A stretch of DNA of 64,000 bases from Commensalibacter nepenthis (GTDB lineage: Bacteria > Pseudomonadota > Alphaproteobacteria > Acetobacterales > Acetobacteraceae), in assembly GCF_029953305.1 (NCBI RefSeq), contig NZ_JASBAN010000001.1, positions 1,077,501 through 1,141,500 on the forward strand, in the 5' to 3' direction. Shown piece after piece: positions 7,127 to 58,517 of this stretch. The notes below the pieces were generated by a model. It was not told the DNA's origin. It did no database searches and worked only from the letters and a program-made list of their open reading frames with translations. The position numbers were made by a program, and so were the translations under genes. How positions within the stretch are numbered: the first letter of the stretch is position 1; the number at the start of each line of letters is the position of its first letter.

Positions 7127-9049
7127 ATGACTGATTTAAAAACACCACAATTATGCGGTAGCTGGATATCGCCCTTTACCCCCCAAATCGTCAATGGGAA
7201 AAACACAATTTTTTCTGAATTACAAACAGATCACGACGATATTTATTGGCTAGAACGCCGTCCCGAAGAACAAGGCAGAACCGTTCTCGTCAAATGGAAT
7301 TCCACAACCAACATAACAGACATAATCCCACAAGCTTTTTCAGTTGGTACGCGTATCCACGAATATGGTGGTGGGGCATATCATGTACATAACCAACAAA
7401 TTATCTTTAGTGACCAAAAAACAAGCGCTGTTTGGTTTATAAACAAAGCGCAACAAACACTTTTAATCTTTCAAGACGAGAATTATCGTTTCGCTGATTT
7501 TCGCATCATGGATCAATATGTTATCTGTGTGGCTGAACATCATACGCAAGATATTGTTGAAAATTATATTGTTGCCTTGTCTTTATCCAAACCACAGCAA
7601 CTCACTATTTTAGCAAAAGGCGCTGATTTTTATAGTTTCCCACATTTATCCCCAGACCAACATCATCTAGCTTGGATTGAATGGGATCACCCTAACATGC
7701 CTTGGGAAGCAACGCGCTTATGTATCGCGGAAATTAATCAAACGCTTTGCCTACACAATATCAAAATCATTACAGGAACAACTATCCAAGAGTCATTCAT
7801 TCAACCTGAGTGGACATCCAATCATAATTTGATTGTCAGCAATGATCGTAGTGGCTATTGGAATCTTTATCAGGTCAATATCGATGATCCAAACCTATAT
7901 GCCATAGCCCCAATAGATGCTGAAATTGGCTTACCTACGTGGGTGTTCGGACAACAAAGCTGGTATCCACTTCATCATAACCACTTTATTGCTCAGGCAA
8001 TCACCAAAGGTAATGCCGAAACAATATTTATTTGCGATGGGCAAATATCAAAAACTAACCTTAATCATTCAGAATCCTGCCCTGTGCCGTTACAAAAAAA
8101 TAATAGTTTTGCATGGATTAATCATTCCCCCTACAGCCCTGCTCAAATCATGATGCAAGATACTGATGGAAAACACCATATTTTACGCTCCTCTAGTAAT
8201 ATTCAACTCAGTCCAGAGGATATTTCTTATGGACAACCCATCACTTTTCCAACGCAAGATCATCAAAAAGCACACGCATTCTTTTATCCACCCACAAATA
8301 AAAACTATTGCCCAATGGCAGAGGAACTGCCTCCCTTATTGGTTTTGGCGCATGGTGGACCAACAGGGCAAACAACCAACGGTTTCACTCCAAAAATTCA
8401 ATTTTGGACAAGCCGAGGATTTGCCGTTGTTGATGTAAATTATCGCGGCTCTACAGGATTTGGTAAAAATTATCGTGAAGCCTTGCAAAAACAATGGGGT
8501 ATTCTTGATGTGCAAGATTGTATTGATGCCTGTCAATATCTCATTCATCAAGGCAAAGTTAATCCACAAAAAATCGTCATTAGAGGAAGCAGTGCTGGAG
8601 GGTTCACAGTATTAACCGCTTTAATCCAATCTCAATTATTTGCGGCAGGATCTTGTTTATACGGGGTTGGTGATTTAACCGCCTTAGCAAAAGAAACACA
8701 TAAATTCGAAGCACGTTATTTAGATGGTTTGATTGGAGCATATCCAGAAGAAAAACAGTTATATCAAGAACGTTCCCCTTTAACCCATATTCATAATATC
8801 CAATCTCCTTTAATTGTTTTTCAAGGATTAAAAGATCAAGTTGTTCCACCATCTCAAGCCAAAGCTATTGTTAACGCATTGAAAACAAACCATGTGCCTT
8901 ATGCTTATTATACTTTCCCAGAAGAAGGTCATGGATTTAGGCAAGAAGCAACTTTAACCAAAGTCTTGGAAATGGAGCTTTCCTTTTTTGGTAAAATCCT
9001 TGGATTTACTCCAGCCAATTTAAGTGAAGACGTTATTATTCATGTATAA
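7127..9049 (+). CDS. S9 family prolyl oligopeptidase-like serine peptidase
   Basis: This 640-aa protein resembles dipeptidyl/acylaminoacyl peptidases, which cleave short peptides in the cytoplasm or periplasm. The N-terminal 380 residues form the expected beta-propeller-like region. The C-terminal alpha/beta-hydrolase domain holds the catalytic triad: S489 in GSSAGG, D570 in LKDQVVP and H602 in EEGHGFR. The oxyanion region HGGPTGQ lies upstream. No signal peptide is seen, so a cytosolic location is likely. Exact substrate cannot be told from sequence. A ribosome-binding-like AAAGGG lies 5' of the ATG. Confidence 0.9.
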   Translation: MTDLKTPQLCGSWISPFTPQIVNGKNTIFSELQTDHDDIYWLERRPEEQGRTVLVKWNSTTNITDIIPQAFSVGTRIHEYGGGAYHVHNQQIIFSDQKTSAVWFINKAQQTLLIFQDENYRFADFRIMDQYVICVAEHHTQDIVENYIVALSLSKPQQLTILAKGADFYSFPHLSPDQHHLAWIEWDHPNMPWEATRLCIAEINQTLCLHNIKIITGTTIQESFIQPEWTSNHNLIVSNDRSGYWNLYQVNIDDPNLYAIAPIDAEIGLPTWVFGQQSWYPLHHNHFIAQAITKGNAETIFICDGQISKTNLNHSESCPVPLQKNNSFAWINHSPYSPAQIMMQDTDGKHHILRSSSNIQLSPEDISYGQPITFPTQDHQKAHAFFYPPTNKNYCPMAEELPPLLVLAHGGPTGQTTNGFTPKIQFWTSRGFAVVDVNYRGSTGFGKNYREALQKQWGILDVQDCIDACQYLIHQGKVNPQKIVIRGSSAGGFTVLTALIQSQLFAAGSCLYGVGDLTALAKETHKFEARYLDGLIGAYPEEKQLYQERSPLTHIHNIQSPLIVFQGLKDQVVPPSQAKAIVNALKTNHVPYAYYTFPEEGHGFRQEATLTKVLEMELSFFGKILGFTPANLSEDVIIHV

Positions 9050-10172: not shown

Positions 10173-11519
10173 TTGAGTAAGAACATAAATCCTTTACACA
10201 AAGGGATTTCTAGGCAGGCTAGTATAGTGAGTAAATTATTAAAAGCGAGTGTTTGTGTTCCGGTTTTGATAATAGCAGCTTGTTCTACAGATGGGAATGG
10301 CAGCCATAATCCTGTAATTTCTGCAAATGATAATCCTAAAAAACAAGTGGGATTATTATTACCCCTCAGCGGTCGTAATGGTGCGTTGGGCAATAATATG
10401 ATGCAAGCAGCCAAATTAGCACTCAGTGATCCTTCTGCACCTAAACTGGATGTGTTTGATACAGAACAAGCTGGCGGTGCTGCGGAGGCTGCGCGCAAAG
10501 CCATTTCTGCGGGTGATGGAATTATCTTGGGTCCATTAACAGCCAAGAATACAACGGACGTTGCCTCTGTTACCACAGCCAGTAATGTGCCAGTAATTGC
10601 GTATACCAGTGATGTTTCTGTTGCGGCTTCGAATATTTGGGCTTTTGGCGTAACCCCAGAACAACAAGTATTAACAATGGTTCGTGCGGCAAAAAATGAA
10701 GGTAAAACAAAATTTGCAGCTTTATTGCCCGAAAACCCCATGGGTAAAGCAATGGGGAATGCCTTGACCAAAGCCTGTGCTGATTTGGGATTATCACAGC
10801 CTGTGATTATCTATCATACTGCGTCTAAAGAGGATATTACTCAGCAATTAAAAACATTATCCAATTTTGATGCGCGTGTTCAAGATGCTAAAACCAATCT
10901 AACATCACCAACGACAGCAAAATCATCAACAGGTGACAGTAATGAGGGTAATTTGTTAGATGAGTTGGCACCAACAGAATCAACTTCTGCACCTAAAAAT
11001 GATACTAAGAATTTAGCTCTTGGAAATCCTCCTTTTGATGCGTTATTGTTAGCGGATACAGGATTACAATTACAATCCGTTATTGATGCTTTGGATGAAA
11101 CCCAAGTGTCCTCTACCAAAGTCAGAATAATGGGACCTGGGTTGTGGGGGGCTTTTGCTTCTAAATTAGGCAAATTGCAAGGGGCATGGTATGCGTCTCC
11201 TGATCCGAAAAAAAGAACAGTATTTGCACAACAATACAGAGCAAAATATGGTGTTGCGCCAAAACCATTGGCTGATTTAACCTATGATACGGCTGCTTTG
11301 ACAAATTCGCTTAGTAAAATTGGTGGATATACTTCACAAAATTTAATGCGTGCAGATGGGTTTGATGGGGTTGATGGCTTATTTGTTTTACAAGCTGATG
11401 GGCATGTTAAACGTGATTTACAAATTTTTCAAATTCAACCTTCTGGCGGTGCTAGGATGATTTCTACACCTTCAGTGGTTAAACCTGATGTTAATTCAAC
11501 CAATACAACACATAGCTAG
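10173..11519 (+). CDS. Penicillin-binding protein activator, LpoA/YraM-like lipoprotein
   Basis: The 448-aa protein has a lipoprotein signal ending in the lipobox IAAC with Cys37. The mature part is a type 1 periplasmic-binding fold: VGLLLPLSGRNGALGNNMMQ at the start, then IILGPLTAKNTTDVA and VPVIAYTSD. In gammaproteobacteria LpoA activates PBP1A from the outer membrane; in alphaproteobacteria the homologues are annotated by similarity only. A low-complexity insert near residues 235-275 (Ser/Thr/Asn rich) is probably a surface loop. The start is TTG, chosen because AAAGGAG lies about 9 bases upstream. It is divergent from rsmI. Confidence 0.82.
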   Translation: MSKNINPLHKGISRQASIVSKLLKASVCVPVLIIAACSTDGNGSHNPVISANDNPKKQVGLLLPLSGRNGALGNNMMQAAKLALSDPSAPKLDVFDTEQAGGAAEAARKAISAGDGIILGPLTAKNTTDVASVTTASNVPVIAYTSDVSVAASNIWAFGVTPEQQVLTMVRAAKNEGKTKFAALLPENPMGKAMGNALTKACADLGLSQPVIIYHTASKEDITQQLKTLSNFDARVQDAKTNLTSPTTAKSSTGDSNEGNLLDELAPTESTSAPKNDTKNLALGNPPFDALLLADTGLQLQSVIDALDETQVSSTKVRIMGPGLWGAFASKLGKLQGAWYASPDPKKRTVFAQQYRAKYGVAPKPLADLTYDTAALTNSLSKIGGYTSQNLMRADGFDGVDGLFVLQADGHVKRDLQIFQIQPSGGARMISTPSVVKPDVNSTNTTHS

Positions 11520-11534
11520 TTCTTTTTTAATAGC

Positions 11535-11570
11535 TTCAAAGGGCATTTATCTTTCTTTATGCTCTTTGAA
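11535..11570 (+). terminator. Stem-loop downstream of the LpoA-like gene
   Basis: TTCAAAGGGCAT pairs with ATGCTCTTTGAA (11 of 12 positions) across a 12-base T-rich loop, 15 bp after the stop codon. There is no long T tract, so termination strength is uncertain. Confidence 0.6.
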
Positions 11571-11669
11571 ATACCTATATAACTTATTGTAAAATATACT
11601 ATTTTTATAATATATTATTTATATGCATAATAGACATGATTAATTTTCATCTCTATAGAGTAAATAATT

Positions 11670-11678
11670 TGTTATAAT
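11670..11678 (+). promoter_or_regulatory. Extended -10 promoter element for yqhD
   Basis: TGTTATAAT fits the extended -10 form TGnTATAAT, 42 bp before the yqhD start. No clear -35 hexamer is seen, which is usual for extended -10 promoters. Confidence 0.45.
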
Positions 11679-11719
11679 GTAGCCTTGCGTATTTATTTTA
11701 TTGTAAGTGAAGGTATATA

Positions 11720-12883
11720 ATGGCACTTCAAAATTTTGAATTTTGTAATCCTACACGGATTGTTTTTGGTCAAGAAACCATTCAAAAATTAAATGGCTTA
11801 ATTCCTGAAACTGCCAAAGTATTGATTATTATTGGGGGTGGTAGTGTTCGTAAAAATGGAACATTGTCTGAAGTTGAAACGGCTTTGGGAAGGCGTGAGT
11901 TTGCGGTATTTGAAGGAATAGAAGCAAATCCGACCTTTGAAACTTCCATGCAAGCAGTAGAAAAAATTCGTCAAGAGAGTTTTGATTTCCTTCTTGGCGT
12001 TGGTGGTGGATCCGTGATGGATGCAACCAAATTTATTACTGGAGCTGTGAATTACAAGGGTGATGCTTGGGAAATTGTGACCAATGGAGGCAGTAATATT
12101 ACCAGCATAGTGCCTTTTGGATTTGTGCCTACTTTACCCGCAACAGGATCAGAAATGAATTGTGGTGGGGTTATTTCTCGTAAAGCAACAAATGACAAAC
12201 TGTCTATTCGTAATGATCTTTTATATCCTTTATTTTCAATTTTAGACCCGACTAAAACCTATAGCTTACCTAAAAAGCAAATTGCGAATGGGATTGCTGA
12301 TGCGTTTGTCCATACGATTGAACAATATTTAACTTATCCTATTCATGCAGCCGTGCCAGATCGTTTTGCCGAGGGGATATTATTAACTTTGATTGAAGAA
12401 GGACCAAAAACCCTTAATAATCCAGAAGATTATGAATCGCGTGCCAATTTCATTTGGGCAGCAACGATGGCGTTGAATGGATTGATTGGCGCGGGAGTTC
12501 CTCAAGATTGGGCAACCCATATGATTGGTCATGAGTTGACCATTTTATATGGTATCGATCATGGTCGTACCTTGTGTATTTTATTGCCCTCTTTAATGCA
12601 AGAAATGCGTAAAGATAAGCATGGTAAGTTGGTGCAATATGGGCGCAGAGTATGGGGTCTACAAGGGAGTGATGAAGAAAAAATCATTGATGAAGCCATT
12701 GCTAAAACCCGTGCTTTCTTTGAAAGTCTAGGCATTAAAACCTATTTAAAAGAGTATGATGTTGATAGCAGTGCAGTTGATAAAGTCGTTGAACAATTAC
12801 GTCGACATCATTTGACCGCTTTAGGAGAAAGAGGAAATGTTACTTTGGAAGTCAGCCGCCGTATTGTAGAGGCTAGCCTTTAG
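11720..12883 (+). CDS. yqhD: NADPH-dependent aldehyde reductase / Fe-dependent alcohol dehydrogenase YqhD
   Basis: The enzyme reduces short and lipid-derived aldehydes to alcohols with NADPH. The 387-aa length equals that of E. coli YqhD, and the metal ligands known there fall at the same positions here: D194, H198, H267 and H281. The nucleotide-binding motif GGGSVMDATKF and the family block LPATGSEMN are present. It stands alone with its own probable promoter, followed 52 bp later by lolA. A role in detoxifying aldehydes would suit an acetic-acid-bacterium relative; that is inference. Confidence 0.93.
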   Translation: MALQNFEFCNPTRIVFGQETIQKLNGLIPETAKVLIIIGGGSVRKNGTLSEVETALGRREFAVFEGIEANPTFETSMQAVEKIRQESFDFLLGVGGGSVMDATKFITGAVNYKGDAWEIVTNGGSNITSIVPFGFVPTLPATGSEMNCGGVISRKATNDKLSIRNDLLYPLFSILDPTKTYSLPKKQIANGIADAFVHTIEQYLTYPIHAAVPDRFAEGILLTLIEEGPKTLNNPEDYESRANFIWAATMALNGLIGAGVPQDWATHMIGHELTILYGIDHGRTLCILLPSLMQEMRKDKHGKLVQYGRRVWGLQGSDEEKIIDEAIAKTRAFFESLGIKTYLKEYDVDSSAVDKVVEQLRRHHLTALGERGNVTLEVSRRIVEASL

Positions 12884-22850: not shown

Positions 22851-23396
22851 ATGAAACGCACTTTTTTCATTGCTTTGTTAGTTTCTGTATGTGTTGGACA
22901 TGCTGCTTTTGCCAAAGAATATCAATTTAAAAGTCAATTTGATCCATTAACTGTTCAATGGTCTAAGAATGTTGGTACTGCCAAGGTCGCAGGCATGGGC
23001 ATTTATCGTGAAGCTGATGGAACAATGAAGACTTGTGCGGGTCAACAGATCACGTATTATCCTTATGATCCCTATATTGTTGAAGAGTTGCAAGTTAAAA
23101 TGCGAGACATCAAAAAGGTCAAAAATTTTGATTCTCGTATGAATGACTATGCGTTTACTGTTCCGTGTGATGCAAGTGGGGATTTTAAATTAACCAATTT
23201 ACCAGAGGGAAAATGGATTTTTGTGATGAATATCCCCGTGGTTAAAAATAAAGAAGATTATTCTTCATATGACCAGTCTTCTAACCTGACGAACGTTGCA
23301 GGTCAAGGAAATGGTATTTTGTATCGTATTGTCAGTATAACTGCTGGAAAAGTAAATTCTATTCAGTTGGTTCAAGGGGATGTGGAGGAACATTAA
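22851..23396 (+). CDS. Secreted protein of unknown function
   Basis: I do not recognise this family. The 181-aa product has a clear signal peptide (MKRTFFIALLVSVCVGHAAFA, cut probably near residue 21), so it should be periplasmic. The mature part has two cysteines (in KTCAGQ and VPCDASG) that could form a disulphide. A stretch DASGDFKLTNLPEGKWIFV resembles the beta-sandwich repeats of carboxypeptidase-regulatory-like domains. It lies 18 bp after purH. Confidence 0.75.
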   Translation: MKRTFFIALLVSVCVGHAAFAKEYQFKSQFDPLTVQWSKNVGTAKVAGMGIYREADGTMKTCAGQQITYYPYDPYIVEELQVKMRDIKKVKNFDSRMNDYAFTVPCDASGDFKLTNLPEGKWIFVMNIPVVKNKEDYSSYDQSSNLTNVAGQGNGILYRIVSITAGKVNSIQLVQGDVEEH

Positions 23397-23611: not shown

Positions 23612-24423
23612 GGTCTTGTTGCAAATTTAATTATGTATTTTAGTATGATATAGAAATGGATTGATGATTTTAAAGGTCGCCACTTTAGTGGATTGATGAT
23701 TATCCAAGCGGTAAACTAATATTTACGCTATTGTCTTAGCTATCGAGATATTGAGGAATTGTTTTTAGAGCGTGGAGTAAGCGTTGATCATAGCACGTTA
23801 AACCGTTGGGTATTACGCTATGCACCACTATTAGAAAAACGTTTGAGAAGCTATAGAAAGCCCCATTGTGGTGAGGTGAGGATTGATGAAACCTATATCA
23901 AGGTAAAAGGTCAGTGGAAGTATCTATATAGAGCCATTGATAAAGAAGGCACAGCGATTGATTTCTTGTTAACAGCTAAAAGAAATATAAAAGCAGCACA
24001 ACGCTTTTTTAGAAAAGCATTTAAAGAAGATGGTCTGTTCGCTCCAACCCATATTGGAACAGATAAAGCATTACCGTTTCCAAAGACCATACAGACCATG
24101 AAGAATGAGCATATCCTTGCCAATCACTGCGTTCATGAAACAAAGAAATCTTTACAACAGGGAATAGAAAATGATCACTTCAGGTTAAAGAGGGGTATAC
24201 CAAGAAATGGCTGTTTTCAATCTTTTGATACAGCAAGAAAAACACTCAAAGGATATGAGGCCATTCTCTGGATTAAAAAAGGACTGGGCTTTAAAGGAAA
24301 ATAGACAATCAACGAACAAATAAAACTCATTCAAAGCATATTCGGTTTAAATAATAATATAACCGTCTAAATTAGCTCGCTTTATGGCTAATCACAGCAC
24401 CATTCAATATTTGCAACAAGACC
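23612..24423 (+). mobile_element. Decayed IS6-family copy
   Basis: The element starts GGTCTTGTTGCAAATTTAAT and ends TTTGCAACAAGACC. Compared with the intact copy at 39960 it lacks about 65 bp spanning the transposase start and has two Trp codons changed to stops, so it cannot move by itself. It forms the left border of the accessory island. Confidence 0.88.
23668..24369 (+). pseudogene. IS6-family transposase pseudogene
   Basis: The sequence aligns with the 249-aa transposase from DDFKGRHFSG onward. The start region is deleted, the Trp codon in VNWYLRY is TAA (near 23717), and the Trp in GFKGKWTINEQ is TAG (24302). The stretch 23759-24304 is open and still holds the DDE residues, but it is a fragment. 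Confidence 0.85.
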
Positions 24424-24513: not shown

Positions 24514-24556
24514 AACACGGCAGGAATCCCCTCACTTTAGGGAGGGGAGAATGTCA
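24514..24556 (+). mobile_element. Probable IS200/IS605 (IS1341/TnpB-type) right-end remnant
   Basis: The phrase GGAATCCCCTCACTTTAG, then GGAGGGGAGAATGTCAA, resembles the right ends of TnpB-bearing elements, which carry a short GC hairpin just before the insertion boundary. Here TCCCCTC (24527-24533) pairs with GAGGGGA (24542-24548) over an 8-base loop. No tnpA or tnpB sequence remains. Confidence 0.5.
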
Positions 24557-24605: not shown

Positions 24606-26360
24606 TCAACCTACAAGATAATTTTCATTTTTACTTTCTATATTTATTACAATAATAGAATTGTCGTTTACCTCATCAATTTTAATTGATGATTTCCCAT
24701 TTGTCCATTTTAGGTTACTATTTGATGTATGCCAATCAGAACAATTCTGATTAATTTCAATTTTTTTAGAACCTTGTTTAGTGATATGTAATATATTACC
24801 TACTAAAACACCTAATTTTCTCCTATCATCAACAAAAGGACCAACAATTTCTGATGGTCTAAACGATTTAGATTTTATAGTAATATTTTGTGTATTAGGT
24901 GGAATATATAAAATCATTTTATGATCATGTTTAATAAATGGTATTTTTTGATCTTGTTCATTTATAAAATGAATATTTGCATCTGTTGTAGTATGATGTG
25001 GTTGTTTTTCTGCTTTAATGTCTAATTTAACAGCTCTATCTTCAATTTTTTTATAAATATTTTCTACAAAACTACGTTTAGTGTTCAATGGGAATGCAGC
25101 ATCTGTTGCCCACTGTTCAATTTTAATTGGTTGATTATTTTCTTTAGTAAAATCACTATGACCTGTATTTAGAAAACTTTCTGTCTGTATACCGTTTGAA
25201 TTAATAACAGAATGATTTTCCAATTGAATATGATATATAAATTTATTGTTAATAACCCTATTACAAATAGTCCTATTATTTACTAACATACGAGCTGGAA
25301 TAAAGTAATTATCAAAAAACAAACAATGTTCAGGTGTAATATATAAATCTTTATAAGGTAAATTATCTCCTAATGAATTTTTTTTAATACAAACGATTGT
25401 ATTGTTTATAGGTGTTAACAAAGTTTTTCCAACCCATATAACTGATTTAATTACCTCTTTTCCATTAAAATAAGTAATTATTTTATCATATATACAAATT
25501 TCTTCTACTTTTTTCCAGCCATTTACTGTTTGAATCTCAGATCCCTCAAGAAAACAAGGTATCACTAGCTCTTGATTATAATTAAAGAAGAGATTGCTTT
25601 TATCTTTATCGGACATACTATTCATAGCAAATGAATCTGCTATACTTTCATCAAAAGAAAATATCGGTAAATTATTTCTACCCGATCCCATTATTGTATT
25701 AACACCATTGGGAATAGTTGACGGAACACCACCCACATTAGAAGGTTTTAAAGTTATTGTGTCTAATGTATTACTAGAAACAAATTCTCCATCTTCATCT
25801 GTCAATCTGAACTGTACAGCGCTTTTGTTTGGATCATAATAAGTCTTATTTTTATTATAGCCAATTAAACCTTGTTCGTGCGTATATATATGTAAATTTT
25901 TAGGTCCTGAAGAGCCGTATGCATCAGAATAATATACACCCTCTATGTAGGCAGGGTTTTGTACATTGACGTCTGATGTAAAGCGAATAGCTGTTTTTTC
26001 TAAGACACCATCTGCAGGCCAAGCTGATTTATAACCAGCTCTCAATACAGAAGATGGCTCAAGAGTAATATTAGCTATATTTGGAAATTCAGCTGCAGAA
26101 GTGTCTCCAATACCAGGACTTCTTTCATCAGTAAACGTAACCCCAGTTCCAACAACAATGTTAACAGGTGAAGAAAAAGCTTTACCAGTAGGCATTAAAT
26201 CAGCCAAAGAGTAAGTGTTATCCGCAGTTGTACTTGCGTTAGGATCAGTGTTTAAAATAACAGTCTTTCCAGAAAGAGAATCACTACCTTTTTGATCTAT
26301 ATAATCATTAAGATCTTTTACACCTTCAAATGTTATTTGATTATTTTCTATTTTCGCCAT
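24606..26360 (-). CDS. Hint-domain protein (Hint_2 type)
   Basis: The 584-aa protein has three parts. Residues 1-265 are a repetitive, beta-rich region without a signal peptide. Residues about 266-405 are a Hint domain: C269 in VIPCFLEGSEIQTVNGWKKV, then VIWVGK, and H345 in LYITPEHCLF, matching the self-cleaving hedgehog/intein fold. Residues about 470-584 match the module often fused to Hint in Rhodospirillales (SKSFRPSEIVGPFVDDRRKL, GVLVG). No extein or homing endonuclease is seen after the Hint part, so splicing is unlikely and self-cleavage or a structural role is more plausible. It is divergent from the double-glycine peptide gene and markedly AT-rich. Whether the neighbouring exporter secretes it is inference. 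Confidence 0.75.
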   Translation of the reverse strand: MAKIENNQITFEGVKDLNDYIDQKGSDSLSGKTVILNTDPNASTTADNTYSLADLMPTGKAFSSPVNIVVGTGVTFTDERSPGIGDTSAAEFPNIANITLEPSSVLRAGYKSAWPADGVLEKTAIRFTSDVNVQNPAYIEGVYYSDAYGSSGPKNLHIYTHEQGLIGYNKNKTYYDPNKSAVQFRLTDEDGEFVSSNTLDTITLKPSNVGGVPSTIPNGVNTIMGSGRNNLPIFSFDESIADSFAMNSMSDKDKSNLFFNYNQELVIPCFLEGSEIQTVNGWKKVEEICIYDKIITYFNGKEVIKSVIWVGKTLLTPINNTIVCIKKNSLGDNLPYKDLYITPEHCLFFDNYFIPARMLVNNRTICNRVINNKFIYHIQLENHSVINSNGIQTESFLNTGHSDFTKENNQPIKIEQWATDAAFPLNTKRSFVENIYKKIEDRAVKLDIKAEKQPHHTTTDANIHFINEQDQKIPFIKHDHKMILYIPPNTQNITIKSKSFRPSEIVGPFVDDRRKLGVLVGNILHITKQGSKKIEINQNCSDWHTSNSNLKWTNGKSSIKIDEVNDNSIIVINIESKNENYLVG

Positions 26361-26584
26361 AATTATTAATTTCCTTACAAACTATTTTTAGTAAAACATT
26401 ATACTTAAATATAGTATTTATTATGTTATGACAATAATATATAGAAAAAAATAGGTTTGACATCAAACTTATTTTTATTTTAAAAAAAATACTGAAGTCA
26501 TAATAAAAAAAATTGCTTTTTTATTATTTATATAATATAGGATTTCTTGATACTGTTATTATTTCAATTTTTTAAGGAAAAAGA
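26361..26584. promoter_or_regulatory. Divergent control region between Hint and peptide genes
   Basis: This 224-bp region is very AT-rich and must hold promoters for both directions. It contains the perfect interrupted palindrome GTTTGACATCAAAC at 26455-26468 and a TATAAT at 26531-26536 pointing at the peptide gene. AAGGAAAAAGA precedes the peptide ATG. No clear -35 was found. Confidence 0.4.
26455..26468. promoter_or_regulatory. Candidate operator palindrome
   Basis: GTTTGA-CA-TCAAAC is a perfect 6+6 inverted repeat in the shared promoter region. It could bind a dimeric regulator; the regulator is not encoded in the island. Confidence 0.35.
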
Positions 26585-26935
26585 ATGAAAGAGTTAGATA
26601 TTTTTGAAATTACGGAAGTTGCTGGTGGTCGCGCTTCAGGAGTTTTAGATGCTTTATCTGGTGGTGTAACTAGTACTTTAGTTGGTGCTGCTGTTGGTAT
26701 TTTTGCTGGAGCAAAAAGAGGATCAGAATACGCTGGGCGCGTTCAAAACAAAGACCCTTTAACAGGAGCTTTAGGTATTGTAGGTAACGTATTGGGCGTT
26801 GCTGCTGGTGGTATTGCTGGTGCGGTAGCTGGAGCTGTAGGTGGTCTAGGTATGGGACTATCTGACGGTATGGCAGAAACTGACAAGTTAACCAATAGTT
26901 TAAATAATTATTTAAATCAGTCTCTTGCTGGTTAA
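26585..26935 (+). CDS. Double-glycine-leader glycine-zipper peptide (bacteriocin/class II microcin candidate)
   Basis: The 116-aa precursor starts MKELDIFEITEVAGG, a 15-residue leader that fits the class II bacteriocin/microcin pattern (ELxxxEITEVxGG) recognised by C39 peptidases. The predicted mature peptide is 101 residues from R16. It contains two hydrophobic glycine-zipper segments (SGGVTSTLVGAAVGIFAGAK and the Gly/Ala-rich stretch about residues 61-95, with repeated GxxxG). The tail is polar and Asn-rich. Such segments insert into or oligomerise in membranes. The C39 exporter and HlyD adaptor follow at once on the same strand. There is no obvious immunity gene beside it. A non-toxic secreted signal or surface peptide remains possible. 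Confidence 0.75.
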   Translation: MKELDIFEITEVAGGRASGVLDALSGGVTSTLVGAAVGIFAGAKRGSEYAGRVQNKDPLTGALGIVGNVLGVAAGGIAGAVAGAVGGLGMGLSDGMAETDKLTNSLNNYLNQSLAG

Positions 26936-26944
26936 TTAATTCAT

Positions 26945-26995
26945 TAATTCATGAATTACTAAATGTAATATAATACATTAATAATTCATGAATTA
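26945..26995 (+). terminator. Long AT-rich hairpin after the peptide gene
   Basis: TAATTCATGAATTACTAAAT pairs with ATTAATAATTCATGAATTA around a short loop, giving a nearly continuous stem of about 20 bp ten bases after the peptide stop. It could be a partial terminator or mRNA stabiliser that lets the peptide be made in excess over the exporter. Confidence 0.55.
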
Positions 26996-27199
26996 AAATT
27001 ATAGTGAATGATTCATTCTTCCCTAAAAAATCACTTTATATTATGCTTTCTTTGTTCAAGTATGAACCAAATGATTTATTGTTTTGGTAGTCAATAATAA
27101 ATTTGCAGCATGTCTTAATGATTTAATCATTTACTTAAAAATTAATTTTTAATATTGAAAATGCTGAAGTAACATTTACCGCCTTTTATAAAGTAAAAA

Positions 27200-28504
27200 A
27201 TGAGTAGTTTATTTAGATCTCAAGCGTTATCAGCAAAAAAAGATGCATGGCTTGGTAATGTACAAGATATTCAACCTATATCTGTCCGTATAATTTGTAT
27301 TGCATCTTTTCTCTTAACTATCCTTTTTGTGCTTTATTTTTATTATGGTAGTTATACACGTCGTGTTCATGCCGTAGGTAATGTAATGCCATCTTCTGGG
27401 CTTGTAACTATTGGTTCACGAGTAAATGGTATTATTACTAAAAAAAATATAGTAGAAGGACAATTTGTAAAAAAAAATGATGTTCTTTTTGTAATTAGTG
27501 TAGATAGTAACTCTATTTCTGGTCCAACGCAAGAACATATTAATAATCTTTTAAAACAACAAGAAAAAATATTAAATAAACAAATAGAAATAAAAGAACA
27601 AGATGCCCCTATAGAAAAGAATAATATTTTTAACAGTTTAAGTAATTTACAAAAACAACATAATAAAGTGACAGAACAAATTAATAAGGATAATGAGATT
27701 ATTCCTCTTATTCAAAGTTCATTAGTTTTGATTCAAAAAGCCAAAAAACTATCTTTAGCAACAAATCAAGAATATCAAAGTCAATTGTTTACTTATGCCC
27801 AAATTTTAAGTACACATGCTCAATTTTTGCAAAATCAAACAACTATTGAAGGACAAATTTTGGATAATGTGTCAAAAATCAAATTGTTTGATAATAAAAG
27901 AACAAGTGAAGTAAATGAATTAAAAAAACAACTTCTTCAAACAAAACAGCAAATTATAGAATCGGAAAAACAACAAAATATTTATATTACCGCACCAATT
28001 GATGGGAAAATAACCGCTGTACGTGGATATATTGGGCAACAAATAGAAGCCAATATGTCGTTAGCCAGTATTATTCCTAAGGATGATCCCCTAGATGCAG
28101 AACTATATGTTTCAAGTTCGTCTATTGGTTTTTTAAAAAAACAACAAGTAGTTATTTTACGTTACGATGCTTTTCCATATCAAAAATTTGGTTTTGCAAA
28201 AGGTATTATTACCGAAATAACATATTCTCCAATCACATCAAAAGTTATGGGAAAAGAAGCAGTAAGCGAACAATTGGTAACTGAGTTTACACAAAATAAT
28301 AGTGTTAATACAGATCATACACTTTATCGTATTCGCGTTCGTCCTACGAAGGAATATATTTTAGCAGATGGTAAAATATATTATTTACATCCTGGTATGC
28401 GTGTACAAGCAGATATAGCCGTTGATAATCGTAAATTATATCAATGGATGTTTAAACCAGTTATTCAAATTAATGATACTATACAAACAATATTAATGAA
28501 ATAA
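27200..28504 (+). CDS. HlyD-family periplasmic adaptor (membrane fusion protein) of type I secretion
   Basis: The adaptor links an inner-membrane ABC exporter to an outer-membrane TolC-type channel. The 434-aa protein has a short cytoplasmic N-terminus and one membrane segment at about residues 31-50. A lipoyl-like half motif follows (GLVTIGSRVNGIITKKNIVE), then a long coiled-coil hairpin rich in Lys/Gln/Asn (about 115-255). The second lipoyl half is TAPIDGKITAVRGYIGQQIE. It most resembles adaptors of C39-type microcin exporters (CvaA-like). Only 5 bp separate it from the ABC gene. Base composition is extreme: the 60 bases at 27541-27600 contain 8 G or C. No outer-membrane partner is encoded here. 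Confidence 0.88.
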   Translation: MSSLFRSQALSAKKDAWLGNVQDIQPISVRIICIASFLLTILFVLYFYYGSYTRRVHAVGNVMPSSGLVTIGSRVNGIITKKNIVEGQFVKKNDVLFVISVDSNSISGPTQEHINNLLKQQEKILNKQIEIKEQDAPIEKNNIFNSLSNLQKQHNKVTEQINKDNEIIPLIQSSLVLIQKAKKLSLATNQEYQSQLFTYAQILSTHAQFLQNQTTIEGQILDNVSKIKLFDNKRTSEVNELKKQLLQTKQQIIESEKQQNIYITAPIDGKITAVRGYIGQQIEANMSLASIIPKDDPLDAELYVSSSSIGFLKKQQVVILRYDAFPYQKFGFAKGIITEITYSPITSKVMGKEAVSEQLVTEFTQNNSVNTDHTLYRIRVRPTKEYILADGKIYYLHPGMRVQADIAVDNRKLYQWMFKPVIQINDTIQTILMK

Positions 28505-28509
28505 ATACT

Positions 28510-30690
28510 ATGATTGCAGTATTAGAAAAATTAAAATTTAATTTTGGTCATAAAGTTCCAATAATTTTACAGGTTGAAGCTTCAGAGTGTGGATTAGCTT
28601 GTCTTGCTATGATTTTGGGTTATCATAAAAATTTTATTGATTTGGCAACATTTAGACGAAAAGAATCTATTTCCATTAAAGGCATAAATCTTAAAAATAT
28701 TATTGATATTGCTCATCGTAATAATTTATCAACACGTCCTTTAAGACTAGAATTAGAGGAACTTGATAAACTAAAACTTCCTTGTATTTTACATTGGGGT
28801 TTTAATCATTTTGTTGTCTTAGTTAGTGTAAAATCTAATTATATTATTATAAATGATCCTTCACATGGGCAAAGAAAAGTATCTTTGGAGGATGTTAATA
28901 AAGAATTTACTGGCATTGCGCTTGAAGTTACTCCAAATGAACATTTTGAACGTAAAGATGAACGTAATAATTTAAAATTAAGAGATCTTTTTCGTAAAAC
29001 AAAAGGTTTAAAGAAAACTTTATTATATTTATTTTTTGCTTCATTAGGCTTAGAGGCAATTGCTATTATAATGCCAATGGCATCACAAGTTGTTATTGAT
29101 GAAGTTATTGTTACAATGGATAAAGGACTATTAACAACTATTGCTATTGGTGTTGCTCTTTTAATTTTATTACAAATGGTCATTGCAACAGCAAGAACGT
29201 GGATGGTTATGTTATTTAGTACTCGTCTTAGTGTTCAATGGAATTTGGGATTGTTTGAGCATTTATCTTCTTTACCAATGGATTATTTTATTAAAAGACA
29301 TGTTGGTGACGTTTTATCTAGATTTGCCTCATTGGGTATTATTCAAAAAACAATAACAACAGATATGGTTCAAGTTGTTATGGACGGAATTATGGCTGTT
29401 GGTATGCTTATAATGCTAATCATTTACGGTAAGTGGTTAGCTGCTGTAACATTAATAGCTGTAACTTTAGATATTTTATTACGTATTATTGCTTATGGTC
29501 CATATAAACAAGCATCTGAAGAAGGGATAGTATATTCAGCAAAAAAAGATTCACATTTTATTGAAACTTTACGTGGAATGGCAAGCGTTAAATTACTTGG
29601 TTTACAAGAAAGTCGTCAGGTTGGATGGATCAATTTATTAGTTGATACCATTAATGTTGGGTTAAAAACCCAACGATATGATTTAATTTTTGGCCGTATT
29701 AATGATTTTGTTTTTTCCGCAGATCGTTTGATTATGATGGTATTAGGGGCTTATTATGTTATGGATAATGTAATGAGTGTTGGTATGTTAGTAGCTTTTC
29801 TATCGTATAAAGATCAGTTCACTGGACGCATTAGTAACCTTGTGAGTGCAGTTTTTAATTTAAAAATGTTATCTATTCAAAGTGATCGAATTTCTGATAT
29901 TGTTCTTAACCCAACAGAAAAAGAATTAATTGTTTCGTATAATAACGCACCTACACAACAAGCCATTAGCTCTGCAATCATTTCAAATGAAACAAGAGAG
30001 TTTTCTCATTTATCTTGTTATAATCTTGGTTTTCGATATTCACCTAATGAAGATTGGATTTTTCGTCATATAAATATTCTTATACCTAAAGGTAGTAGCG
30101 TTGCTATTGTAGGACCTTCTGGATGTGGTAAATCGACTCTATTAAAAGCAATGATGGGATTAACATTTCCTGAAGAAGGAGAAATTCTATTTAACGGAGA
30201 AAATATTTTAAAAAATCCATTAAACGACTATCGTAATAAAATTGCTGGAGTTTTACAGGATGATGGTTTGTTTTCTGGTTCTATCGCTGAGAATATTTGT
30301 GGATTTAATAATCAACCAAATTTTGATCTTATTAAAAAATGCGCAGAAGAATCTTCAATTCTAGAAGATATTGAAAATATGCCAATGAAATTTGAAACTT
30401 TTGTTGGAGATATGGGAAGTTCTTTGTCAGGAGGACAAAAGCAACGTGTAATTTTAGCTCGTGCTTTATATAGTCAACCTGATATTTTATTTTTAGACGA
30501 AGCAACTAGTCATTTAGATGAAGCAACAGAATCTTTTATCGCTCATGTGTTAACTAATTTAAAAATTACAAGAGTTATTATCGCTCATCGTCCTGCTACA
30601 GTTGCTCATTGTGATTATATTATTGTAATGGATAAAAATTTAAATAAAGAAGGAAAGATTAGTATAATTAAAAGAGAGGATTTGGTTTGA
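28510..30690 (+). CDS. C39-peptidase-containing ABC exporter (bacteriocin/microcin type)
   Basis: The 726-aa protein cleaves double-glycine leaders and pumps the mature peptide out. The N-terminal C39 peptidase has the full triad C27 (EASECGLACLAM), H100 (WGFNHFVVL) and D116 (INDPSHGQ). It is followed by a six-helix transmembrane domain (about 165-450). The nucleotide-binding domain has Walker A GPSGCGKST near 535, signature LSGGQKQR near 639 and Walker B ILFLDEAT near 659. All catalytic residues are present, so it should be active. It lies directly behind the HlyD gene, and the only double-glycine precursor I see is the peptide at 26585. An IS6 copy begins 22 bp after its stop. Confidence 0.93.
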   Translation: MIAVLEKLKFNFGHKVPIILQVEASECGLACLAMILGYHKNFIDLATFRRKESISIKGINLKNIIDIAHRNNLSTRPLRLELEELDKLKLPCILHWGFNHFVVLVSVKSNYIIINDPSHGQRKVSLEDVNKEFTGIALEVTPNEHFERKDERNNLKLRDLFRKTKGLKKTLLYLFFASLGLEAIAIIMPMASQVVIDEVIVTMDKGLLTTIAIGVALLILLQMVIATARTWMVMLFSTRLSVQWNLGLFEHLSSLPMDYFIKRHVGDVLSRFASLGIIQKTITTDMVQVVMDGIMAVGMLIMLIIYGKWLAAVTLIAVTLDILLRIIAYGPYKQASEEGIVYSAKKDSHFIETLRGMASVKLLGLQESRQVGWINLLVDTINVGLKTQRYDLIFGRINDFVFSADRLIMMVLGAYYVMDNVMSVGMLVAFLSYKDQFTGRISNLVSAVFNLKMLSIQSDRISDIVLNPTEKELIVSYNNAPTQQAISSAIISNETREFSHLSCYNLGFRYSPNEDWIFRHINILIPKGSSVAIVGPSGCGKSTLLKAMMGLTFPEEGEILFNGENILKNPLNDYRNKIAGVLQDDGLFSGSIAENICGFNNQPNFDLIKKCAEESSILEDIENMPMKFETFVGDMGSSLSGGQKQRVILARALYSQPDILFLDEATSHLDEATESFIAHVLTNLKITRVIIAHRPATVAHCDYIIVMDKNLNKEGKISIIKREDLV

Positions 30691-30712
30691 CATCCTATAT
30701 TCGGTCTTGTTG

Positions 30713-31579
30713 CAAATATTGAATGGTGCTGTGATTAGCCATAAAGCTAGCTAATTTAGACGGGTATATTATTATTTAGACCGAATATGCTTTGAATGAG
30801 TTTTATTTGTTCGTTGATTGTCCATTTTCCTTTAAAACCCAGTCCTTTTTTAATCCAGAGAATGGCCTCATATCCTTTGAGTGTTTTTCTTGCTGTATGA
30901 AAAGATTGAAAACAGCCATTTCTTGGTATACCCCTCTTTAACCTGAAATGATCATTTTCTATTCCCTGTTGTAAGGATTTTTTTGTTTCATGAACGCAGT
31001 GATTGGGAAGGATATACTCATTCTTCATGGTCTGTATGGTCTTTGGAAACGGTAATGCTTTATCTGTTCCAATATAGGTTGGAGCGAATAGACCATCTTT
31101 TTTAAACGCCTTTCTAAAGAAACGTTGTGCTGCTTTGATATTTCTTTTAGCTGTTAATAAGAAATCAATAGCAGTTCCATTCTTATCAATGGCTCTATAT
31201 AGATACTTCCACTGACCTTTTACCTTGATATAGGTTTCATCAATCCTCACCTCACCACAATGGGGTTTTCTATAGCTTCTCAAACGTTTTTCTAATAGAG
31301 GAGCATAGCGTAATACCCAACGGTTTAACGTGCTATGATCAACGCTTACTCCACGCTCTAAAAACAATTCCTCAATGTCTCGATAGCTAAGACAATAGCG
31401 TAAATACCAGTTTACCGCTTGGATAATCATCAACCCACTAAAGTGGCGACCTTTAAAATCATCCTTAGACCTTAATATAAGCTTGCTATAGATACCAATA
31501 GACATAAATCAATCCTAAAAAAATAATCAATCCATTGCTATATCATACTAAAATACATAATTAAATTTGCAACAAGACC
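30713..31579 (-). mobile_element. IS6-family insertion sequence, full length
   Basis: The 867-bp copy starts GGTCTTGTTGCAAATATT and ends AAATTTGCAACAAGACC, giving inverted ends. It has inserted against, or inside, another IS6 copy whose 3' part continues at 31580. No 8-bp target duplication is visible. It bounds the right side of the exporter island, in the opposite orientation to the left-hand copy. Confidence 0.9.
30756..31505 (-). CDS. IS6-family transposase
   Basis: The 249-aa DDE transposase is apparently intact, with D89 in RIDETYIK, D148 in YIGTDKA and E183 in GIENDHF. An N-terminal HTH-like segment (YRDIEELFLERGVSVDHSTL) precedes the core. IS6 elements move by a replicative, cointegrate-forming route and often leave adjacent deletions. 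It is nearly identical to the copies at 34792 and 40037. Confidence 0.93.
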   Translation of the reverse strand: MSIGIYSKLILRSKDDFKGRHFSGLMIIQAVNWYLRYCLSYRDIEELFLERGVSVDHSTLNRWVLRYAPLLEKRLRSYRKPHCGEVRIDETYIKVKGQWKYLYRAIDKNGTAIDFLLTAKRNIKAAQRFFRKAFKKDGLFAPTYIGTDKALPFPKTIQTMKNEYILPNHCVHETKKSLQQGIENDHFRLKRGIPRNGCFQSFHTARKTLKGYEAILWIKKGLGFKGKWTINEQIKLIQSIFGLNNNIPV

Positions 31580-31978
31580 GAAGATGGTCTATTCGCACCC
31601 ACTCATATTGGAACAGATAAAGCATCTCCTTTTCCAAAAACCATACAGACCATGAAGAATGAGCATATCCTTGCCAATCACTGCGTTCATGAAACAAAGA
31701 AATCTTTACAACAGGGAATAGAAAATGATCATTTTAGAGTAAAGAGAATTATCCCAAAGAATGGTTGCTTTCAGTCTTTTCATACCGCAAGAAAAACACT
31801 CAAAGGATATGAGGCCATTCTCTGGATAAAAAAAGGACTGGGTTTTAAAGGAAAATGGACAATCAACGAACAAATAAAACTCATTCAAAATCTATTCGGT
31901 TTAAACAATCCTCTTGCTTACTAAATGATTCAATCTTTATGGCTCTTTACAACTTAAAATATTATTTGCGACAAGACC
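31580..31978 (+). mobile_element. IS6-family 3' fragment
   Basis: The fragment begins inside the transposase at EDGLFAPTHIGTDKA, remains open to the stop near 31924 and ends at the variant terminus ATTATTTGCGACAAGACC. The 5' half is missing, so it is inactive. The intact copy at 30713 abuts it. Confidence 0.85.
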
Positions 31979-34739: not shown

Positions 34740-35619
34740 GGTCTTGTCGTAAATTTGAAATTGGGTTATATTTCGCTATAAAATAAGTGAGTTAGCAAGG
34801 AAGTGTGTTATTTAATCCGAAGATATTTTGGATAAGCTTTATTTGTTCGTTGATTGTCCATTTTCCTTTAAAACCCAGTCCTTTTTTAATCCAGAGAATG
34901 GCCTCATATCCTTTGAGTGTTTTTCTTGCGGTATGAAAAGATTGAAAGCAACCATTCTTTGGGATCATTCTCTTTACTCTAAAATGATCATTTTCTATTC
35001 CCTGTTGTAAAGATTTCTTGGTTTCATGAACGCAGTGATTGGGAAGGATATGCTCATTCTTCATGGTTTGTATGGTCTTTGGAAAAGTTGCGGCTTGATC
35101 TGTTCCAATATGGGTTGGAGCGAACAGACCATCTTCTTTAAACGCCTTTCTAAAGAAACGTTGTGCTGCTTTGATATTTCTTTTAGCTGTTAATAAGAAA
35201 TCAATAGCAGTTCCATTCTTATCAATGGCTCTATATAGATACTTCCACTGACCTTTTACCTTGATATAGGTTTCATCAATCCTCACCTCACCACAATGGG
35301 GCTTTCTATAGCTTCTCAAACGTTTTTCTAATAGTGGTGCATAGCGTAATACCCAACGATTTAACGTGCTATGATCTGTATTTATCCCACGTTCTAAAAA
35401 CAATTCCTCAATGTCTCGATAGCTAAGACAATAGCGTAAATACCAGTTTACCGCTTGGATAATCATCAATCCATTAAAATGACGACCTTTAAAATCATTC
35501 CTAGGTCTTAATATAAGCTTGCTATAGATACCAATAGACATAAATCGTTCCTAAAATATAAATACTCACTCCATTTCTACATCATACTAAAATACATAAT
35601 TAAATTTGCGACAAGACCG
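34740..35619 (-). mobile_element. IS6-family insertion sequence, full length (variant end)
   Basis: This 880-bp copy starts GGTCTTGTCGTAAATTTGAA and ends AAATTTGCGACAAGACC. Its 3' non-coding end (AGCAAGGAAGTGTGTTATTT) differs from that of the copy at 39960, marking a second subtype, also seen as a scar at 20085. Confidence 0.9.
34792..35541 (-). CDS. IS6-family transposase
   Basis: This is an intact 249-aa frame with the DDE triad (RIDETY, HIGTDQA, GIENDHF). It differs from the 30756 copy at scattered sites (for example RPRND, GINTDHS, DQAATF), consistent with a separate subtype. Confidence 0.92.
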   Translation of the reverse strand: MSIGIYSKLILRPRNDFKGRHFNGLMIIQAVNWYLRYCLSYRDIEELFLERGINTDHSTLNRWVLRYAPLLEKRLRSYRKPHCGEVRIDETYIKVKGQWKYLYRAIDKNGTAIDFLLTAKRNIKAAQRFFRKAFKEDGLFAPTHIGTDQAATFPKTIQTMKNEHILPNHCVHETKKSLQQGIENDHFRVKRMIPKNGCFQSFHTARKTLKGYEAILWIKKGLGFKGKWTINEQIKLIQNIFGLNNTLPC

Positions 35620-56603: not shown

Positions 56604-58517
56604 ATGAGTAAAGTGATCGGTATCGATTTAGGTACAACAAACTCTTGTATTTCCATCCGTGAAGGAAGCGAAACAAAAGTTATCGAAAACAGCGAAGGTG
56701 CACGCACGACCCCATCTATGGTTGCGTTTACCGAAAGTGATGAAATGTTGGTCGGCCAAGCTGCTAAAAGACAAGCAGTAACCAACCCTAGCAACACTTT
56801 ATACGCTGTAAAAAGATTAATTGGTCGTCGTTTTGATGATAAAATGGTTGCACGTGATAAAGGCTTGGTTCCCTACGAAATCGTTAAAGGTGACAATGGT
56901 GATGCATGGGTTGAAGCACGTGGCAAAAAATACGCACCTTCTCAAGTTTCTGCATTTATCCTTGGAAAAATGAAAGAGACAGCAGAATCTTATCTTGGTG
57001 AAAAAGTAACACAAGCTGTTATTACTGTTCCTGCTTACTTTAACGATGCACAACGTCAAGCAACCAAGGATGCAGGTAAAATCGCAGGACTTGAAGTCCT
57101 TCGTATTATTAACGAACCTACAGCTGCTGCTTTGGCTTATGGTTTAGAAAAGAAAAACAGTGGCACCATTGCTGTATATGACTTGGGTGGTGGTACTTTT
57201 GATATTTCAGTTCTTGAGATTTCTGACGGTGTGATCGAAGTTAAATCAACCAATGGGGATACATTCCTTGGTGGTGAAGATTTTGACTCTCGTATCATCG
57301 AATTCCTTGCTGATGAATTTAAAAAAGAACAAGGTATTGATCTTCGTGGTGATAAACTTGCTTTACAACGCTTGAAAGAAGCTGCTGAAAAAGCAAAAAT
57401 TGAACTTTCTTCTTCTAAAGAAACTGAAATCAACCTACCTTTCATCACCGCTGATGCTTCTGGACCAAAACATTTGGTTCTTAAACTAAGCCGTGCAAAA
57501 TTAGAAAGCCTTGTTGAAGATCTTATCAAAAGAACTCTTGAACCCTGTAAATCTGCATTAAAAGATGCTGCGTTGTCTGCTGGTGGTATTGATGAAGTAA
57601 TCTTAGTGGGTGGTATGACCCGTATGCCTAAGGTCATTGAAACTGTTAAAGAATTCTTTGGTAAAGAGCCTGCTCGTAACGTGAACCCTGATGAAGTTGT
57701 TGCTATTGGTGCAGCAATTCAAGGTGCGGTATTAAAAGGGGATGTTAAAGACGTTCTTTTATTAGACGTTACCCCATTATCTTTGGGTATTGAAACATTA
57801 GGTGGTGTATTTACACGTTTGATCGACAGAAATACAACCATTCCAACCAAGAAAAGCCAAACGTTCTCTACTGCTGAAGACAACCAAAATGCTGTTACCA
57901 TTCGTGTTTGTCAAGGTGAACGTGAAATGGCTGCAGACAATAAATTGTTAGGTAATTTTGACTTAACAGGCATTGCACCTGCACCTCGTGGCGTTCCTCA
58001 AATCGAAGTTACTTTTGATATTGATGCAAACGGTATCGTTTCCGTATCTGCAAAAGATAAAGCAACAGGTAAAGAACAACAAATCAAAATCCAAGCATCT
58101 GGTGGTCTATCTGATGCGGATATTGAAAACATGGTTAAAGATGCAGAAGCAAATGCCGATGCTGATAAAGCCAAAAAAGAAATGGTTGAAACCAGAAACC
58201 AAGCAGATTCATTGGTTGCTCAAGTAGAAAAAAATCTACAAGAACATGGTGACAAACTTGATGATGCAACCAAAACAGAAATCGAAACTGCTGTTGCTGA
58301 TGTTAAAGCTAAAAAAGAAAGCAGCGATGTTGCTGAACTTAAAACAGCGACAGAAAAACTTTCTCAACTATTGATGAAAATTGGTGAAACCATCTATAAA
58401 GCAACAGGTGGTGCAGATGCGGCAGCTGGCGCTCAAGAATCTTCTGAAAAACCTGCAGAAGACGTTGTTGATGCCGATTTTGAAGACGTCAACCATAATG
58501 ATAAGAAATCTACCTGA
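56604..58517 (+). CDS. dnaK: Molecular chaperone DnaK (Hsp70)
   Basis: The 637-aa chaperone starts [15 protein letters not shown]. It has the ATPase signatures [22 protein letters not shown] and [13 protein letters not shown], then the linker [16 protein letters not shown] and a substrate-binding domain. The tail is acidic ([10 protein letters not shown]). Start is ATG 56604, with AAGGAG nine bases upstream; a longer frame begins at 56577. It lies 229 bp after grpE with its own probable promoter and is followed by two hairpins. Confidence 0.98.

Follow-up and report, generated by a model that had tools for sequence, protein, structure and literature searches.

Class II microcins of the colicin V type carry a double-glycine leader and are exported by a C39-ABC exporter with an HlyD adaptor. 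In MafB-type polymorphic toxins, the variable toxin follows a Hint domain. According to the survey of Cdz-like systems (PMC5380434; this paper and the others cited here were available in part), a Cdz-like peptide is recognised by a length of 60–151 residues, a leader ending in G[G/A/S], one or two glycine zippers flanked but not interrupted by proline or charged residues, a short polar or charged C-terminus and type I secretion genes within 10 kb. Immunity proteins were hard to find in that survey too. Here, a locus is described that resembles these systems and in which a double-glycine peptide has a Hint-domain protein as its neighbour. It lies in a stretch of 64,000 nucleotides of Commensalibacter nepenthis (contig NZ_JASBAN010000001.1, positions 1,077,501 to 1,141,500; hereafter the window, whose own numbering is used for its features) and consists of four intact genes flanked by two oppositely oriented IS6-type copies: a Hint_2 gene on the minus strand, followed on the plus strand by the genes for the peptide, an HlyD adaptor and a C39 exporter.

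Judged from sequence comparison, the peptide–Hint pairing is real and recurs in the Acetobacteraceae, and would represent a variant of glycine-zipper or microcin-type peptide export. A first-pass annotation of the window had not known it as a described system, and literature searches combining Hint with double-glycine, C39, type I secretion, BIL or bacteriocin, with partial coverage of subscription papers, likewise gave no description. The main text of the Cdz paper mentions neither Hint nor Acetobacter (PMC5380434). None of six sequence terms looked for in connection with gluconacin occurs in PMC10535834, and the comparisons made here do not include gluconacin. In the available part of a bee-gut genome mining study, RiPP-like bacteriocins are reported only in Lactobacillus Firm5, and the present peptide family is neither named nor excluded (PMC10673953).

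The locus compared with described systems

The peptide gene (26585–26935, plus strand) encodes 116 aa, within the length range of Cdz-like peptides. Its leader of 15 codons (26585–26629, plus strand) reads MKELDIFEITEVAGG and ends in VAGG, so the textbook leader named in the first-pass annotation is indeed present. The predicted mature peptide of 101 aa (26630–26935, plus strand) combines glycine zippers with a polar tail. GxxxG occurs 10 times in it, where shuffles give 4.5 (p 0.002), and prediction from this sequence alone yields two long helices (mean pLDDT 76). As judged by eye, proline or charged residues flank the zippers without interrupting them, and the C-terminus fits the short charged or polar type. 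The peptide had no match among plasmid records, and its profile found nothing under 0.26 among solved structures.

The HlyD-type periplasmic adaptor (27200–28504, plus strand; 434 aa; HlyD_3, 1.1e-13) and the C39 peptidase/ABC exporter (28510–30690, plus strand; 726 aa) were assigned by family search and alignment and lie adjacent to the peptide gene, well placed for a type I pair within 10 kb. The exporter contains Peptidase_C39 (1.4e-37), ABC_membrane and ABC_tran. Residues Q21, C27, H100 and D116, which we take to be the catalytic C39 residues, are invariant in ten aligned exporters including the window copy. A complete C39 triad and ABC motifs had been read from the sequence alone at first pass. 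The exporter stays below the curated cut-off of the NHLP bacteriocin export family TIGR03796 (492.6 vs 853.3 bits), and PADLOC matched the exporter only, as an ATPase type. An outer-membrane channel gene is missing from the locus, as the first-pass annotation had stated; this is not general, since such a gene adjoins the exporter in two other genera. All nine Commensalibacter genomes searched, this one included, have the exporter, and a bacteriocin exporter gene (COG2274) is reported in all Commensalibacter genomes studied in PMC10149009.

Like Cdz of Caulobacter crescentus, the locus has a small zipper peptide with a GG leader, a linked type I pair and no linked TolC gene, and like Cdz loci it has transposase flanks and a sporadic distribution (PMC5380434). 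Unlike Cdz, it has a Hint partner, one peptide instead of two and no apparent gene for a small membrane immunity protein (CdzI) among open reading frames (ORFs) of at least 40 aa, which agrees with the immunity gene being noted as missing at first pass. As no CdzI-like gene is apparent, the system is regarded as working like Cdz and is not filed as a proven member. The double-glycine leader, the C39-ABC exporter and the HlyD adaptor are shared with class II microcins, a likeness at the level of family features; the Hint partner and the lack of an apparent linked immunity gene set the locus apart from them.

The Hint protein (24606–26360, minus strand; 584 aa; ORF table, family search) has Hint_2 (PF13403) as its sole family above cut-off, at residues 268–399 (25164–25559, minus strand; 2.4e-24, 86.8 vs 28.4 bits cut-off), with C269, T342-x-E-H345, H377 and H383. 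A variable N-domain (residues 1–267; 25560–26360, minus strand) precedes it, and a conserved region (residues 400–584; 24609–25163, minus strand) follows. Both the Pfam score and the fold place the domain in the Hint_2 family and HINT superfamily: a Foldseek search with the AlphaFold2 (AF2) model returned BIL2 of T. thermophila (1.2e-4), a C. thermocellum BIL domain and inteins, with Hedgehog weaker (8.5e-3). The one match from comparing the sequence with solved structures, ToxN, was at chance level (E 0.12) and was discarded; the fold search was needed. Of 93 Hint sequences, 92 have Cys269 (the other has a gap there) and all 93 have His345, His383 and Thr/Ser342, whereas residue 401 is not fixed, being Asn in 64 and another residue or absent in the rest. 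In the window protein it is His, so that the C-terminal Asn of splicing inteins and BIL-A domains is lacking. Because the active-site residues are kept while residue 401 is unfixed, N-terminal self-cleavage chemistry is probably retained and splicing is not expected.

The HINT fold, the N-terminal Cys and the T/S-x-x-H motif are shared with BIL and Hedgehog/Hog Hint domains, and a conserved region after the Hint domain is shared with Hog proteins (PMC2362128); by analogy, residues 400–584 may occupy the place of the adduct-recognition region of Hog proteins. Unlike in BIL and Hog proteins, there is no fixed C-terminal Asn, making splicing unlikely, and the variable part is N-terminal. MafB-type toxins resemble the present protein in having a Hint domain in a competition-related secreted protein, but here the variable domain precedes the Hint domain and a peptide gene adjoins. 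Five other Hint proteins are encoded in the genome, three with AIDA stalk repeats, one with Hyphal_reg_CWP and one with neither; these regions indicate that the Hint module sits on adhesin-like proteins.

Recurrence of the peptide–Hint pair

The recurrence survey covered 47 loci including the window, plus 80 named loci partly repeating them; loci and genomes are given below by L and G numbers. As proposed at first pass, the same four-gene neighbourhood was looked for in other Acetobacteraceae. The divergent layout, with the Hint gene facing away from peptide, HlyD and C39 genes, was found in seven further loci, five in Acetobacter (L110, L111, L112, L115, L142) and two in Gluconobacter (L121, L146); the peptide frames of L110 and L111 were missed by the first leader pattern and found by later inspection. 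Other orders occur as well. In L120, HlyD, C39, peptide and Hint genes follow in a row, and L070 combines C39 and HlyD with an outer-membrane efflux gene (PF02321), a Hint gene, two peptides and a free N-domain, the last of which (8250–8843) lacks a Hint domain and stands beside the N-domain–Hint protein. Among the 80 named loci, a Hint gene is present in 8 of the 18 from Acetobacteraceae and in none of the 62 from other groups, several of which are short contigs.

Peptide–Hint modules distant from an exporter were found in Acetobacter, Bombella, genus g14 and another Commensalibacter. Three of them (L066, L067, L273) belong to a single genome, G021, with L067 carrying three leader peptides and one Hint protein. 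L069 (A. farinalis) has two tandem peptide–Hint pairs, also away from the exporter. In Commensalibacter G006, the module L017 lies with a Rep_3 gene and without an exporter on a 9.7-kb contig (C3, 9710 bp, also L295); this contig has a 505-aa relaxase-like frame (by eye) and KptA-like fragments, and is plasmid-like. Second peptide–Hint modules were present in all six Bombella (genus g57) loci examined (L255–L260; G386 is outside the sample), and in four of them peptides flank the Hint gene on either side. Five tandem leader peptides were found in L100 (12520–14763) beside the native Commensalibacter exporter, with no Hint gene nearby. A regulator gene lies upstream of them, and its likely homologue in L249 has Peptidase_S24 and HTH. 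Five small leader-peptide frames also stand in a row beside the exporter in L129 (11109–12720), three of which (11109–11842) have FFPPE-like motifs, unlike zipper peptides.

Hint genes stand close to exporters more often than chance would give. At a distance of up to 8 kb from the exporter, 16 of 41 genomes (1.9 expected) or 6 of 15 genera (1.6 expected) have a Hint gene, and up to 3 kb 7 of 41 genomes (0.8 expected). The 41 loci, one per genome, came from the best 44 of 74 exporter matches in 70 genomes; the window's own exporter, the second G002 copy and G405 were left out, and only Hint frames longer than 250 aa were counted. The expectation may be somewhat low, since it was computed from rounded genome sizes and from per-genome Hint counts by sequence search, which is less sensitive than the profile applied to the loci. 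The first-pass annotation would have called the linkage accidental had the two genes never been linked in relatives, which these counts contradict.

A leader peptide was found within 700 bp of 22 of 70 distinct Hint genes with clear flanks, against 80 of 1302 random intervals in the same loci. The 22 are the 23 found by pattern minus L040, judged false, and the sample is biased in that many loci were fetched for their peptide or exporter. Among loci fetched for the Hint gene alone, 7 of 20 short-Hint and 0 of 20 long-Hint loci were paired; the short-Hint set included Bombella frames chosen for a length resembling paired ones. The leader pattern also matches false frames, those judged so by eye being in L255 (5372–5593), L261, L269, L271, L273 (2562–2735) and L282. 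The peptide family (profile A3, E <= 1e-6) occurs in 12 of 397 genomes of the family Acetobacteraceae, all 12 of which have the exporter, compared with 70 of 397 overall (4e-10 by genome, 3e-4 by genus).

The N-domain and the peptide also vary together. Over 17 modules with the leader removed, N-domain similarity correlated with mature-peptide similarity with r 0.63 over 136 pairs and r 0.55 over 113 cross-genus pairs, neither reached in 5000 permutations, while for the Hint part r was 0.40 over all pairs and 0.17 cross-genus. L111, L256, L258, L259 and L260 were left out as near copies, and L139 for its AIDA-group partner. The clearest case is the window against G021 (N-domain Z 18, peptide Z 36), in which the gene order differs; among the N-domains compared, that of the window is related only to the N-domain of this peptide-paired G021 protein. 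On the sequence evidence, the tracking shows that peptide and Hint genes travel and diversify as a unit. In profile comparison, the N-domain groups of L067, L070, L120, L069 and L017 form a weak chain, the best link being L067–L120 (86.5% probability) and the others 28–61%; the remaining pairs among these five are below 3%, and no other group pair exceeds 12%.

Proposed mechanism and alternatives

Gene content, the fold and active site of the Hint domain, recurrence of the pair, its co-occurrence with the exporter, class tracking and the replacement of the native exporter (see below) are all evident from the sequence. From these we infer export, cleavage, toxicity, location, binding, a TolC partner and the function of the Hint partner. 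The reading preferred here, held with about even confidence, is that of a mobile cassette in which a Cdz-like or class II microcin-like glycine-zipper peptide has a matched Hint partner. The C39 domain would cut the peptide after VAGG, and C39-ABC and HlyD, with a presumed TolC-type channel encoded elsewhere, would export it. The zippers could let it aggregate on the surface or enter the membranes of neighbours. The divergent Hint protein would be the second, matched component, with an N-domain that goes with the same class of peptide, and self-cleavage of the Hint domain at Cys269 would free the N-domain or fix it to an acceptor. For the N-domain we prefer a role as a tether, receptor or escort, secreted or at the surface, that serves its own peptide, and the pair is possibly used against rival bacteria. 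A more specific version, which we consider very unlikely, is a Hedgehog-like transfer device, in which a Cys269 thioester would pass the N-domain to the amino end of the peptide or to a surface lipid (hopanoid), displaying a covalent class-matched complex.

Several observations weigh against the preferred reading. Outside the Hint part, the AF2 model is of low quality (mean pLDDT 48.5), and inspection by eye, no predictor having been run, shows neither a Sec signal nor a GG leader in the Hint protein, which leaves its export route in doubt. In the seven remaining Commensalibacter genomes, the exporter has no Hint gene closer than 8 kb, indicating that the partner is not needed for export. Seven of the 16 linked genomes are Bombella, with a Hint gene of another N-domain class nearby and unrelated genes between, and the linked gene of G004 (C. 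intestini A911) is 6 kb off, with an AIDA-group N-domain and no AIDA repeat by Pfam. Exporters of Bombella, too, have peptides of the L069 and L120 class beside them, and there the nearest Hint protein is several kb away and carries a different N-domain. A looser single-sequence peptide search found 7 of 397 genomes, including weak partial matches in G311 and G353 without exporter. The tracking could also arise because the two genes are inherited together, and need not mean binding. Zipper enrichment is not universal either: L112, L256a and two tested L100 peptides are unenriched (the leader was kept on in this test for L017, L120, L110, L273 and L256b). The L110/L146 class is Cys/Tyr-rich, the GxxxG count of L146 being above its shuffles. 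As some paired peptides are not zippers, the system is broader than Cdz. Finally, no immunity gene is apparent beside the window or L100 peptides, as judged from ORF tables without membrane-protein prediction, which is awkward for a bacteriocin.

Because no immunity gene is apparent, even beside the five L100 peptides, two other explanations keep some weight. The Hint protein might itself be the immunity or self-protection partner, its N-domain binding its own peptide outside the membrane and sparing the producer. We regard this as rather unlikely, even though the N-domain tracks the peptide class and the Hint gene is a steady neighbour of peptides in the exporter-less L066, L067 and L069, as in toxin–immunity pairs; peptides and Hint genes even alternate 1:1 in L069, and in L070 there are two peptides and two N-domains, one of which lacks Hint. 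The L100 peptides, however, have no Hint gene nearby, L067 has three peptides for one Hint protein and another candidate in its 84-aa frame (8342–8596), and an immunity N-domain would here share its protein with a self-processing module that is elsewhere seen on adhesin-like proteins. The known CdzI, moreover, is a small membrane protein (PMC5380434). The 84-aa frame has a lipoprotein-like start (by eye) and lies just after the three leader peptides of L067, as a possible immunity gene. A fairly improbable alternative makes the peptides structural or adhesive surface peptides, forming glycine-zipper aggregates with the Hint protein as matrix or adhesin partner. It would fit the lack of apparent immunity genes in the window and L100, the five similar tandem peptides of L100, the adhesin-like regions on four of the genome's other five Hint proteins, and peptides that vary in kind, some being Cys/Tyr-rich. 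In our judgement, sporadic mobile modules such as contig L295 and the IS6 island resemble competition genes more than housekeeping matrix genes.

That mobile elements carried Hint genes, common in Acetobacteraceae, near exporters by accident is hardly credible. Up to 26 Hint genes occur per genome, and no peptide neighbour was found in 20 of 20 long-Hint loci and for 48 of 70 Hint genes. Against this stand the excess proximity at 8 kb, at 3 kb and by genus, the same layout in three genera and a class tracking reached in 0 of 5000 permutations; on exporter proximity, tracking and leader-peptide neighbour counts, accidental linkage was rejected. If the cassette with a matched Hint partner is right, a second dedicated component is added to glycine-zipper and microcin-type peptide systems, and a concrete role is found for part of the numerous Hint_2 proteins in acetic acid bacteria. 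Since modules are found in genera that live with insects and have strains in culture (Commensalibacter, Bombella), and some modules are exporter-less, the role of the partner is directly testable by deletions and N-domain swaps.

The island, its borders and its history

Whereas PurH is 98% identical between the window and C. communis LMG 31819 (G003), the exporter is only 75% identical. In G003, the native exporter site spans about 4.0 kb with HlyD and C39, bordered by a 172-aa gene beside an ammonium-transporter-like gene (by eye) and by a regulator; in this genome only 75 bp are left. This site is at L249 9938–10014, at about 495.9 kb of the contig that also holds the window. The divergent exporter together with the missing native copy points to replacement by transfer, which is better evidence than G+C content for the horizontal acquisition suggested at first pass. 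The native exporter was lost, and a divergent exporter arrived on the IS6 island together with a peptide and partner of its own, in either order. In exporter and adaptor trees, the window copy falls inside the Commensalibacter clade on a long branch, a placement that its unusual composition can disturb, and the donor appears to belong to Commensalibacter or to a lineage next to it. A search of this genome, made without positive control, found no relative of a native Commensalibacter peptide. At purH, relatives align only to about 23611 and give no clean empty site.

The island has a G+C content of 0.293, against 0.353–0.412 in 88 other overlapping 6.1-kb stretches of the window and 38% for the window outside it. 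Its genes are at 0.285–0.300, compared with 0.32–0.40 for exporter and adaptor in other Commensalibacter genomes. The sampled counts that had first suggested a low G+C content were exact: 8 of 60 at 27541–27600 and 13 of 60 at 28621–28680, against 25 of 60 in dnaK (57061–57120). ORFs, families and 15-base ends also confirm the two IS6-type copies. The left copy (23612–24423, plus strand) has a shortened transposase frame at 23759–24304 (181 aa only), and the right copy (30703–31579, minus strand) a 249-aa IS6-family transposase at 30756–31505. Two IS6 copies around a cargo suit a composite transposon, but the outer flanks differ (by eye) and show no 8-bp target duplication. The IS605-like scar proposed at first pass exists as a hairpin (24527–24548, no strand assigned; hairpin scan); its label is unproven, no Rfam family reaching gathering score in the window.

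The Hint and peptide genes are separated by a divergent spacer of 224 bp (26361–26584; ORF table, sequence). Between the peptide and HlyD genes, where the ORF table has no frame of at least 40 aa, the hairpin scan found an A+T-rich hairpin with a 15-bp stem (26944–26996, plus strand; z -4.0), a possible attenuator or 3' end. A promoter scan gave no excess (35 found vs 40.1 in shuffles). Just beyond the left IS6 copy, a 181-aa protein without Pfam or NCBIfam match (22851–23396) has an apparent signal sequence (by eye). On the other side, a fragment IS6-like by resemblance in the ORF table (31580–31978) abuts the right copy, and a 249-aa transposase frame near the island (34792–35541) is likewise IS6-like by resemblance. 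The source genome, of an insect-gut bacterium, measures 2.52 Mb.

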